DNA from: Bacteroidota bacterium
GTDB taxonomy: Bacteria; Bacteroidota; Rhodothermia; Rhodothermales; Bin80
Direction: 5' to 3'
DNA: 33,511 bases
NCBI GenBank assembly: GCA_028873925.1
Contig: JAPPNA010000061.1
Location: 1-33,511 of the forward strand
Numbering within the stretch: position 1 is the first letter of the stretch; each line of letters opens with the position of its first letter. The position numbers were made by a program, and so were the translations under genes. The notes below the pieces were generated by a model that saw only the letters and a list, made by a program, of their open reading frames with translations, searched no databases and was not told the origin of the DNA. Of this stretch, positions 1,977 through 33,456 are shown in pieces.

Positions 1977-2008
1977 TTGCCCATTTGGTCGTGCGGTCCG
2001 TATCTTTG
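1977..2008 (+). promoter_or_regulatory. Bacteroidota-type promoter upstream of exbB
   Basis: TATCTTTG at 2001-2008 matches the Bacteroidota -7 consensus TAnnTTTG exactly. A TTG at 1977-1979, 21 bases upstream, could serve as the -33 element. Transcription would begin near 2015, about 45 bases before the exbB ATG. The match is direct; activity is inferred. Confidence 0.5.
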
Positions 2009-2061
2009 GACGGATGCAATTTTTCCGTTGGTTCTAACCGAAACTCAAAAATCAGGAGTAG

Positions 2062-18862: not shown

Positions 18863-18866
<4 letters not shown>

Positions 18867-19879
18867 GCCGGGTATGTGGTGATCAGTCCGGTCAGCTCCC
18901 TGACCCGCTCCATGCAGGCATCCGCCCGCAGCCTGGCATTCCGGGCTCCCTGGCGCAGCACATCCATGACATAGTCGGGGTGTGCCAGCAGTTCACGCCG
19001 CCGCTCACGGGCGGCTGCAAAATGATGGAGAATCTGCTGTTCCAACTCTTTCTTGGCATGCCCGTAGCCGTAGCCGCCCTTCAGGTAGGCCTCCCGGATT
19101 TCCTCAAGCTTTACGTTGTCTGCGAAGAGCCGCAATAGCGCAAATACATTGTCCGTGTCAGGGTCCTTGGGGGCGTGCAGCGGCGTGGAATCGGTAACGA
19201 TACGCCGGATGCGCTGCGAAAGCACCTTACCTTCATCAAAGATGCCGATCGTGTTGCCGTAGCTCTTGGACATCTTTCTGCCATCTATGCCCGGTACAAC
19301 CGCGACACTGTCAACGATATAGGCTTCAGGGATCGGGAACACAGGGTCCTCAGGGCAGAACGAATGGTTGAAGCGCTGCGCGGTGTTGCGCGTGATTTCA
19401 ATATGCTGGCGCTGGTCTGCACCGACCGGTACGGTGGTGCCGCCATAGATCAGGATATCGGAGGCCTGCAGAATCGGATAATTGAAGAGTCCGCAGTTGG
19501 CGGAAAGTCCCTGGGCGATTTTGTCCTTATATGAGGTGGCCTTCTCAAGTTGGGAAACCGGCGTGAGGCAGAAAAATATCCAGGTCAGCTCATTGAGCAG
19601 CGGCACATCACTCTGTACAAACAGATTGGACCGATCCGGATCGAACCCCAGGGCCAGGTAGGTGATAGCGGCATCCAAGGTATGAGCGCGCAGCTCACCG
19701 GCATCCTTCACGGTCGTCATTGCGTGGTAGTTCACAATGAAATAGTAGGAGGGATGTGCCTTCTGCAACGCGATGTGCTGACGCAGCGCACCGAAATAAT
19801 TGCCGATATGGAGTGTTCCGGACGACTGGATGCCGGAGACTACGATGGTTTCCCCCGGCGTGAATGGGTTGACCGGCAT
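18863..19879 (-). CDS. trpS: Tryptophanyl-tRNA synthetase
   Basis: TrpRS, 338 residues: class I aminoacyl-tRNA synthetase charging tRNA-Trp. The HIGH-type motif is GTLHIGN (21-27) and the KMSKS loop is at 202-206. The Trp-pocket segment ELTWIFFCLTPVSQLEKATSYKDK is recognisable, as is GADQRQHIE. The ATG at 19879 lies one base after the stop of the upstream gene and starts immediately before the first strand. An earlier in-frame ATG at 19936 would add 19 non-conserved residues and overlap that gene. Its position inside the trp operon ties tryptophan use to its synthesis. Confidence 0.96.
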
Positions 19880-19880
19880 G

Positions 19881-20357
19881 TTATCGGGTGCTGGCCTCTT
19901 CGCGGATGCTGCTCCGCAGGTGGTCGAGCCGGTCACTGCTGCTTGTGAGCAGATGGCTGATGACCGCCTCCGTGCGGATCTGGTGATTGAGGGCCTGCTC
20001 CTCGCGGAGGCTGGCCTGGAAGGCGCGTTCCCGGTCCTGCAGGGACTTCAGCATGCCCTCATCCGGCAGTAAAAATCGTTCAGGCTCCATATCCGTGCCG
20101 TTGGGCGGGACCGCACCGCAGCTGAAGACGACTTCCATCAGTTTGCCGACATCGGTGCGCGCGGTCCGCTGGAGTCGGGCAATACCGCTTCGGACTTCCG
20201 GCGACTGGTGGTGGGAAGCAGCAGAGTTGTAGCTGTGATTGAGTGCCATATGCGCAGTAATCAGCGGGCACAGCCGCTCCGCGGTGGCCTGACGGGACAG
20301 CGTGCGTCCGGCCCAGCCCTTTTTCAGTACGGCCGCCTTTATCTCTTTGAGTCTCAT
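19881..20357 (-). CDS. Unknown helical protein between trpE and trpS
   Basis: 158 residues, no family recognised with certainty. It has a short basic N-terminal region (1-25), then amphipathic helices at about 27-48, 51-80, 103-130 and 132-152, consistent with a four-helix bundle. The pattern LNHSYNSAASHH...RTDVGKLMEVVFSCGAVPPNG, with a later E-rich helix, recalls ferritin-like/DUF2383-type bundles, but the metal-ligand ExxH motifs are not clear. It is flanked by trpE (38-base gap) and trpS (1-base gap), so it is certainly co-transcribed. A role in tryptophan metabolism is only inferred from position. It does not look like chorismate mutase. Confidence 0.7.
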   Translation of the reverse strand: MRLKEIKAAVLKKGWAGRTLSRQATAERLCPLITAHMALNHSYNSAASHHQSPEVRSGIARLQRTARTDVGKLMEVVFSCGAVPPNGTDMEPERFLLPDEGMLKSLQDRERAFQASLREEQALNHQIRTEAVISHLLTSSSDRLDHLRSSIREEASTR

Positions 20358-20395: not shown

Positions 20396-21889
20396 TCAGA
20401 GTAGGCCGCGTGACGCAACCAGCAGGGCCTTCTTCAGCGCACGGGCCTTATTGACTGTCTCAAGGAATTCCCGTTCGGGATCACTGTCCGCCACAATGCC
20501 AGCTCCGGCCTGAATAAAGACATCCCGATCACGCACGACCATGGTACGGATGGCTATGCAGGTATCCATATTGCCGCTGTAGTCCACATACCCCACCGCG
20601 CCCGCATAGATGCCGCGGCGAACCGGTTCCAGTGCATCAATAATCTCCATCGCCCGCACCTTGGGGGCTCCGCTGACTGTTCCCGCCGGAAAACATGCCT
20701 TCAAAACGTCCAGCGTCTGAGTGTTCGCAGGCAGCTGCCCCGAAACAGCACTAACAATGTGCATAACATGTGAATATCGTTCAATGTAGGCGTACCGGTC
20801 CACCTGAATACTGCCCAGCGCACAGACGCGTCCCAGATCATTACGTCCCAGGTCCACCAGCATCAGATGTTCAGCACGCTCCTTGGGATCCGCCAGCAAT
20901 TCTTCGGCCAGCTGCTGGTCTTCTTCGGGGGTGGCACCCCGCGGCCGGGTACCTGCAATCGGAAGCACCTCCGCCCGGCTGTCTTCCACGCGAACGAGCA
21001 CTTCGGGGGACGAGCCGATCAGGATTACCGGTCCGAACTCAAGGTAGAACAGGTAAGGAGACGGGTTGACCTGTCGCAGAGCGCGGTAGAGATTGAAAGC
21101 GTCTCCTTCAAAGGACAGCGTAAACCGCTGCGAGAGCACCACCTGGAAGATGTCACCTTCATAAATGAGATCCTTAGCTCGTTCTACGGCGCCTTCAAAG
21201 TTCGATCGGACAAAATTGGACTGCAGGGTGTCTGTGCTCAGCCGGACTGCTTCGGGGCTCTCAGGGGGGGCGGCTAAGTCGGCCTCCATGGCGGACAATC
21301 GGTCGCGGGCCCGATCATAGCAGGCCCGAATGTCAACCCCGGGAGTCACAAACACGCTCACCATAAGCACTATCTGGTGCATGAGGCGGTCAAACGCGGC
21401 CAGGGTATCGTAGAAGCACCATATGGCATCCGGCAGTTCAAGGTCATCCGGCGGAGCATCGGGCAGGTGCTCAATCAGGCGCACCCCATCATAGCCTACA
21501 AACCCCACCGCGCCACATCGCAGTCGTGGAAGGTGCGGCACCGGCACCTCCCGGAATTCATCCATATAGTGCTGGAGGACCGCGAACACATCACCATCGG
21601 GCGGCTCACCGAGCGGCACGCCATCCATGTCTTCAACGGTCACGCTTGCAGAATCCGATCGGACTACGCGAAAGGGGTTCCGCCCGAGAAACGAGTACCG
21701 GGCCATATTCTCACCTCCCTCCACGCTCTCCAGCAGGAACGCATATCGCCCCGTTTTGCGCAGGGCGAGCAGTGCGCTGACCGGTGTGAGCAGATCCGCA
21801 CTCAGCCTGCGACTTACCGGAATCACAAAGCGATCCACACCGCGCTGCCGCTGGCGCTCAACGAGGCTGTCAAAGGCTTCAAAGGTCAT
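20396..21889 (-). CDS. trpE: Anthranilate synthase component I
   Basis: TrpE: converts chorismate and ammonia (from TrpG) to anthranilate, the committed step. From the ATG at 21889 it is 497 residues. The feedback-inhibition motif LLES (in YAFLLESVEGG) indicates that the enzyme binds tryptophan. The chorismate-binding core is complete: PSPYLFYLEF, GSSPEVLVR, PIAGTRPRG, the E.AEHLMLVDLGRNDLG stretch, PAGTVSGAPKVRAMEIID and GAVGYVDYSG. An in-frame GTG at 21904 would add five residues but lies directly against the T-run of the terminator. First structural gene of the trp operon. Confidence 0.96.
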   Translation of the reverse strand: MTFEAFDSLVERQRQRGVDRFVIPVSRRLSADLLTPVSALLALRKTGRYAFLLESVEGGENMARYSFLGRNPFRVVRSDSASVTVEDMDGVPLGEPPDGDVFAVLQHYMDEFREVPVPHLPRLRCGAVGFVGYDGVRLIEHLPDAPPDDLELPDAIWCFYDTLAAFDRLMHQIVLMVSVFVTPGVDIRACYDRARDRLSAMEADLAAPPESPEAVRLSTDTLQSNFVRSNFEGAVERAKDLIYEGDIFQVVLSQRFTLSFEGDAFNLYRALRQVNPSPYLFYLEFGPVILIGSSPEVLVRVEDSRAEVLPIAGTRPRGATPEEDQQLAEELLADPKERAEHLMLVDLGRNDLGRVCALGSIQVDRYAYIERYSHVMHIVSAVSGQLPANTQTLDVLKACFPAGTVSGAPKVRAMEIIDALEPVRRGIYAGAVGYVDYSGNMDTCIAIRTMVVRDRDVFIQAGAGIVADSDPEREFLETVNKARALKKALLVASRGLL

Positions 21890-21904: not shown

Positions 21905-21942
21905 AAAAAAGACCCACTACCTCTATTGAGACAGTGGGTCTT
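21905..21942 (-). terminator. Terminator hairpin in the trp leader (candidate attenuator)
   Basis: Read on the minus strand, AAGACCCACT (21942-21933) pairs perfectly with AGTGGGTCTT (21918-21909), with an inner CTC/GAG stem closing an AATA loop, followed by a run of six Ts ending at 21905. Only 15 bases separate it from the trpE ATG, and none from an alternative GTG. A full intrinsic terminator directly before the first trp gene suggests transcription attenuation. Confidence 0.8.
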
Positions 21943-22089
21943 GTGCGCAGGATTCCGGATCATTCAGAATTCAAATCGGCCCACTGCCCCGTTTAACGGA
22001 TAGCACCAGCTATGGGTCGGCCAAAGATGCATGGGGTGCAGGCGGAATACGTACAATACTGCCGGAAATGATACGCCATTGGACCCACT
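21911..22089 (-). promoter_or_regulatory. trpL: trp leader with five alternating complementary segments
   Basis: On the minus strand, five short segments alternate between two complementary forms: A AGTGGGTC (22089-22082), B GACCCATA (22018-22011), C AGTGGGCC (21985-21978), D GACCCACT (21940-21933), E AGTGGGTC (21918-21911). D:E is the terminator. A:B, B:C and C:D are possible competing pairs. This is the layout expected of an attenuator, but a simple stalled-ribosome model gives the wrong sign, so the mechanism is unresolved. Confidence 0.5.
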
Positions 22090-22117
22090 TAATCAAGCAT
22101 CTGACAAATTGGAACAT
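22010..22117 (-). CDS. Candidate trp leader peptide
   Basis: Small ORF of 35 codons upstream of trpE, starting MFQFVRCLIKWVQWRII, with two Trp codons at positions 11 and 14 separated by two residues. The first Trp codon lies inside leader segment A and the stop codon (22012-22010) lies inside segment B. No Shine-Dalgarno sequence is visible and 35 codons is long for a leader peptide. A random ORF with two close Trp codons cannot be excluded. Confidence 0.4.
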   Translation of the reverse strand: MFQFVRCLIKWVQWRIISGSIVRIPPAPHASLADP

Positions 22118-33040: not shown

Positions 33041-33113
33041 GCTGGCGTAGCTCAACTGGCAGAGCAGCTGATTTGTAATCAGCAGGTTGGGGGTTCAAGT
33101 CCCTTCGCCAGCT
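33041..33113 (+). tRNA. tRNA-Thr(UGU)
   Basis: Seven-pair acceptor GCTGGCG/CGCCAGC with discriminator T, standard D and T arms (GGTTCAAGTCC), anticodon loop TTTGTAA giving anticodon TGT. The CCA end is not encoded (CTT follows). A TATATAAG stretch 30 bases upstream, at 33011, may be a -10 element. It is the first of four tRNAs before tuf. Confidence 0.97.
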
Positions 33114-33183
33114 CTTTATCAGGATTTTGAATGGCATTGGCACTGACGGCACGAGCGTGCGTAAAAGACAGGTTGCTGAAATC

Positions 33184-33265
33184 GGGCAGGTACCCAAGCG
33201 GTCAACGGGGGCAGACTGTAAATCTGCTGGCTAAGCCTTCGGAGGTTCGAATCCTTCCCTGCCCA
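33184..33265 (+). tRNA. tRNA-Tyr(GUA)
   Basis: 82 bases with a long variable arm typical of bacterial tRNA-Tyr. Acceptor GGGCAGG/CCTGCCC with discriminator A, anticodon loop CTGTAAA (GTA). CCA is not encoded (CCC follows). The G34 makes it a queuosine target, as is fitting near queA. Confidence 0.97.
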
Positions 33266-33269
33266 CCCT

Positions 33270-33342
33270 GCGAGAGTAGCTCAGTTGGTAGAGCATCAGC
33301 CTTCCAAGCTGGATGTCGCGAGTTCGAATCTCGTCTCTCGCT
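33270..33342 (+). tRNA. tRNA-Gly(UCC)
   Basis: Acceptor GCGAGAG/CTCTCGC with discriminator T; anticodon loop CTTCCAA (TCC). The 3' CCA is encoded at 33343-33345, unlike the first two tRNAs of the cluster. Only four bases separate it from tRNA-Tyr. Confidence 0.97.
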
Positions 33343-33347
33343 CCAAG

Positions 33348-33419
<72 letters not shown>

Positions 33420-33456
33420 CCAGTTACGTATTTGGGACAAATCTCGTCTAAGAGGT

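Follow-up and report, generated by a model that had tools for sequence, protein, structure and literature searches.

A probable E. coli-type tryptophan attenuator in the trpE leader of a Bacteroidota bacterium

The window, by which we mean the whole 33,511-nt stretch of DNA analysed, belongs to a draft genome of 3.9 Mb and carries a tryptophan operon on its minus strand, with the Pfam-assigned order trpE-orf158-trpS-trpG-trpD-trpC-trpF-trpB-trpA (21889-13859). The closest named matches of TrpE are from an uncultured Bacteroidetes bacterium (63% identity) and Balneola (56%), and on these nearest named records the genome would be placed in the Rhodothermus/Salinibacter lineage. The gene for tryptophanyl-tRNA synthetase, trpS, is located inside the operon (18863-19936, minus strand), a placement that is conserved, also on the Balneola side. 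An attenuator ahead of trpE would thus also control the enzyme charging the sensed tRNA. Between trpE and trpS, at 19881-20357 (minus strand), a 158-aa protein without a known family is encoded. Homologues (33-58% identity) sit at the same position in nearly all order relatives checked, and the ORF therefore looks like a conserved, unnamed member of the trp operon. A tRNA cluster, Thr(TGT), Tyr(GTA), Gly(TCC) and Thr(GGT), lies at 33041-33422 on the plus strand. The features of the trpE leader are listed below, with the basis of each in brackets.

22091..22096, minus strand: promoter -35 element TTGATT (matrix from 66 relatives' promoters)
22068..22073, minus strand: promoter -10 element TATCAT, 17-nt spacer (promoter matrix)
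22082..22089, minus strand: segment A, inside the promoter spacer (sequence and promoter matrix)
22010..22117, minus strand: 35-codon ORF with Trp codons 11 and 14, an existing open frame that we do not take to be the leader (promoter overlap; stop-to-terminator distance)
21964..22032, minus strand: putative leader ORF trpL, 22 codons, MHLWPTHSWCYPLNGAVGRFEF followed by a stop (geometry of 78 relatives; by-eye alignment)
22021..22023, minus strand: Trp codon 4 of trpL (sequence)
22006..22008, minus strand: Trp codon 9 of trpL, in TGG TGC TAT (sequence)
22010..22027, minus strand: segment B, possibly corresponding to segment 1, the protector that pairs with C (free-RNA folding)
21980..21990, minus strand: segment C, corresponding to segment 2, GGGGCAGTGGG, antiterminator 5' arm (C:D energy; covariation with D and E)
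21928..21941, minus strand: segment D, corresponding to segment 3, terminator 5' arm (sequence, covariation)
21910..21923, minus strand: segment E, corresponding to segment 4, terminator 3' arm (sequence, covariation)
21905..21910, minus strand: terminator T-run (sequence)
20396..21889, minus strand: trpE, the regulated gene (Pfam)

An intrinsic terminator (21941-21905) precedes the first structural gene of the operon. It consists of a 14-bp hairpin (21941-21910, -20.8 kcal/mol) followed by six T, and ends 15-20 nt ahead of the trpE ATG at 21889. A strong terminator against the trpE start had been pointed out in a preliminary description of this DNA, together with five alternating complementary segments, A to E, all of which are present. 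The energy of the C:D pairing (-21.2 kcal/mol) is nearly equal to that of D:E, and shuffled leaders give a far weaker C:D (z -4.0).

To place the leader in context, DNA upstream of trpE was sampled from 89 genomes of the order (88 readable, one too short) and 20 on the Balneola side, and a further draw of 40 from the phylum contained two inside the class and 38 outside it. A relative was scored by a hairpin plus T-run and an ORF of 8-45 codons ending ahead of the hairpin. A terminator with a leader ORF of at least two Trp codons was found in 59 of 88 readable order relatives, 19 of 20 sampled Balneola-side genomes and 21 of 38 phylum members outside the class, counts that may be somewhat inflated since the rule takes the ORF with most Trp. 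Three genomes of genus g48 (L194, L195 and L197) carry a terminator and a leader-like region before trpE without a clear Trp-rich ORF, possibly a variant or a remnant. The C, D and E strands vary in concert across relatives, as a comparison for compensatory changes revealed. At position 4 of D the three strands read C:G:C in 31 sequences and T:A:T in 19, with positions 5, 7 and 8 similar; since the sequences are related to one another, these figures do not represent independent events. The C:D and D:E pairings of the window rank among the strongest of all 79 members compared.

Of the 78 class members, 66 have a promoter of the form TTGNNN-spacer-TANNNT ahead of the leader start, the spacer being almost always 17-18 nt; in dinucleotide shuffles the mean number was 5.8 and the highest 11. 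In most relatives it ends 6-10 nt before the leader start. A matrix was built from the 66 promoters ahead of relatives' leader ORFs. TTGATT-N17-TATCAT (22096-22068) scores 15.3 with this matrix, the second-highest value in the whole window on both strands, and the next-best site near the leader on the same strand scores 5.2. The spacing from the -10 element would put the transcript start near 22062. The top match of the window (1977-2012, plus strand, TTGCCC-N18-TATCTTTGG, score 21.4) is located upstream of an ORF starting at 2062 that appears MotA/ExbB-like by eye.

The candidate leader ORF, trpL, runs from ATG 22032 to TGA 21964. Its Trp codons are W4 and W9 of 22 codons (2-5 Trp in the 78 relatives), and its stop lies 22 nt before the terminator, within the 18-52 nt of relatives. 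Segment C is inside trpL, 14 nt past the Trp 9 codon. The leader ORFs of relatives typically contain WWW. Aligned by eye, SWCYPLNGAVGR of the window matches LWWWSPAQAVGR of one relative (L145); compared with this and with GWWWFSTAAVGR of another (L173), WWW has become WCY in the window, while AVGR, whose codons hold the GCAGTGGG RNA arm, has been retained. TGG TGC TAT is apparently worn from the TGG TGG TGG of relatives. Among shuffled window leaders, 3.8% contain an ORF placed in this way with two or more Trp codons; because of this chance rate, and with only two, separated Trp codons in trpL, the case for the ORF draws mainly on comparison. The start is uncertain: ATG 22032 would leave a leader of ~30 nt, and starting instead from the in-frame TTG at 22056 would make the ORF 30 codons long and the transcript near-leaderless.

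The promoter match, the ORF and its Trp codons, the C:D and D:E complementarity, the covariation and the conserved geometry are seen in the sequence and in its comparison with relatives, and from them we consider it very probable that the trpE leader works as a classical trp attenuator, ribosome-mediated as in E. coli. The earlier suggestion of an attenuator of trpE is supported. In the proposed mechanism, transcription would start near 22062 and a ribosome would translate the 22-codon (or 30-codon) leader with its two Trp codons. When charged tRNA-Trp is scarce, the ribosome would wait at Trp 4 or Trp 9 and C would stay open; C would then take D once D is made, leaving E without a partner, and the polymerase would proceed into trpE. 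With ample Trp, the ribosome would run to the stop (21966-21964) and cover C, D:E would pair and transcription would end at the T-run. Translation of trpL, its Trp response and the remaining strength of that response in this species are predictions from the sequence.

Folding with competing constraints, as had been proposed for this leader, gave a difference in C:D between ribosome states before E is made. The expected C:D pairs numbered 11.7 with a ribosome stalled at W9, 11.6 at W4 and 0.0 once the ribosome had reached the stop; C:D also forms in RNA free of ribosomes, again before E is transcribed (8.7 expected pairs). The antiterminator shares an arm with the terminator and, being encoded in the ORF past the Trp codons, is masked in these foldings once translation completes. 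In full-length RNA, D:E wins in every ribosome state modelled, which implies that the choice made by the switch must be kinetic. Stalling favours C:D over a stop-positioned ribosome in 62 of the 79 members, and the opposite is seen in 5. Segment B may act as a protector of C: B:C forms in free full-length RNA (8.6 expected pairs), but the local fold does not surpass that of shuffles (z -0.6). Across the 79 members the mean z is -0.38, which gives no statistical support for conservation of such a hairpin.

Within the family of the window the switch seems to be eroding, as judged from losses in relatives and from WCY in the window. In the sister genus (g2, 10 species) and in g3, of the same family, terminator and leader are both absent, and one of two g5 genomes has a decayed copy, with the other g5 genome, g4 and g6 keeping the switch. 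In several species of the sister genus (L127-L136) a TATAAG-like element is found shortly before the trpE ATG, as though a deletion had brought promoter and gene together and had left trpE itself near-leaderless. The reduction of WWW to WCY, together with these losses, would also fit a worn-out attenuator in the window itself, in which the terminator is left, Trp is no longer usefully sensed and trpE is read through at a constant partial level. We consider this unlikely, since C:D and D:E, still in step with the ORF, rank among the strongest of the 79 members, and two Trp codons still precede C.

The preliminary description had instead proposed a leader of five segments in which the 35-codon ORF is translated and the switch either works in reverse or is set by a further signal. 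The elements of this model are real. The frame is open (22117-22010), with Trp at codons 11 and 14, the first Trp codon falls in segment A, the TAG stop runs into the end of B (22018-22010), and A:B could pair with -12.2 kcal/mol. However, the first half of the ORF overlaps the promoter, its stop lies 68 nt from the terminator compared to 18-52 nt in relatives (median 30.5), and it occurs in no relative and is thus not conserved. Segment A is probably not transcribed, since it falls between the -35 and -10 elements of the best trp-type promoter on this strand. As conserved parts, A and B find no support in relatives; of the shuffles of 22117-21992, 1.7% contain a pair of such 6-mer cores. Ranking by Trp count and length alone puts a shortened form of the 35-codon ORF on top, but this form fails on the promoter and distance tests. 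We regard the five-segment model as very improbable. The logic appeared backwards because the wrong small reading frame had been chosen: trpL lies downstream of the 35-codon ORF in a different frame, and with a ribosome stalled on its Trp codons C would be free for D, the classical direction. An extra signal is not needed under the trpL model, and an apparent exception to attenuation logic is removed. A leader that senses a protein or tRNA without a translating ribosome (TRAP-like or T-box) is scarcely credible: no positive support was found, apart from the link to tRNA charging that trpS in the operon could provide, all Rfam families including T-box fall below threshold in the window, and the Trp-rich leader ORFs across relatives indicate translation.

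The leader peptides of relatives look leaderless or nearly so, given that their promoters end only a few nucleotides upstream and that transcripts would start ~6 nt past the -10 element. The bacterial group of the host is reported not to rely on Shine-Dalgarno initiation. In Flavobacterium psychrophilum, leaderless transcripts are only 5.5% of the examined mRNAs (PMC9723704), so that leaderlessness would be special to the leader ORF. A search of the window with cmscan against Rfam gave four tRNAs only, with no T-box and no other family. The Trp_leader family (RF00513) had no match in the host genome, with E. coli alone positive among 14 control genomes, and no Rfam family matches the leaders in 15 relatives. 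That these leaders form an old, phylum-wide family of trp attenuators, leaderless or nearly so, absent from Rfam and described in none of the literature searched, of which the window copy would represent late erosion within one family, is a proposal to which we give even odds. Control of trp genes by a leader peptide appears to be common in this class and to extend to other parts of the phylum, with translation beginning at the 5' end or close to it. These leaders offer a natural set for studying how early ribosome loading can control RNA polymerase without the usual ribosome binding site, and the same set would be useful for following how attenuators decay.

In a 2010 survey, leader-peptide control of trp genes was described as known from no phyla other than Proteobacteria and Actinobacteria until the hisS case that the survey itself added from Firmicutes (PMC2965389). 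We found no published account of trp attenuation in Rhodothermus, Salinibacter or Balneola, most of the subscription literature lying outside the search. Within the Bacteroidetes, leader-peptide attenuation has been inferred upstream of amino-acid biosynthesis operons in F. psychrophilum (PMC9723704), a likeness to the present leader, although the main text of that paper does not mention trp. Sinorhizobium meliloti trpL-trpE(G) provides a leaderless precedent (PMC7298713): its transcript starts at the ATG of the Trp leader ORF, as is apparently the case in most of the relatives studied here. It differs in belonging to another phylum and in its 14-aa peptide, and in the window copy the start is either a TTG or lies behind a longer 5' leader. 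The closest parallel in mechanism is the trp attenuator of E. coli (RF00513; PMC1183508), in which a short ORF with Trp codons also lies upstream of trpE, antiterminator and terminator share an arm, and stalling favours antitermination. Compared to E. coli, the leader peptide of the window is longer, its stop is downstream of C and the protector hairpin is putative. The mechanism would thus be of the already known E. coli type, and the members in this lineage are new and mostly uncatalogued.
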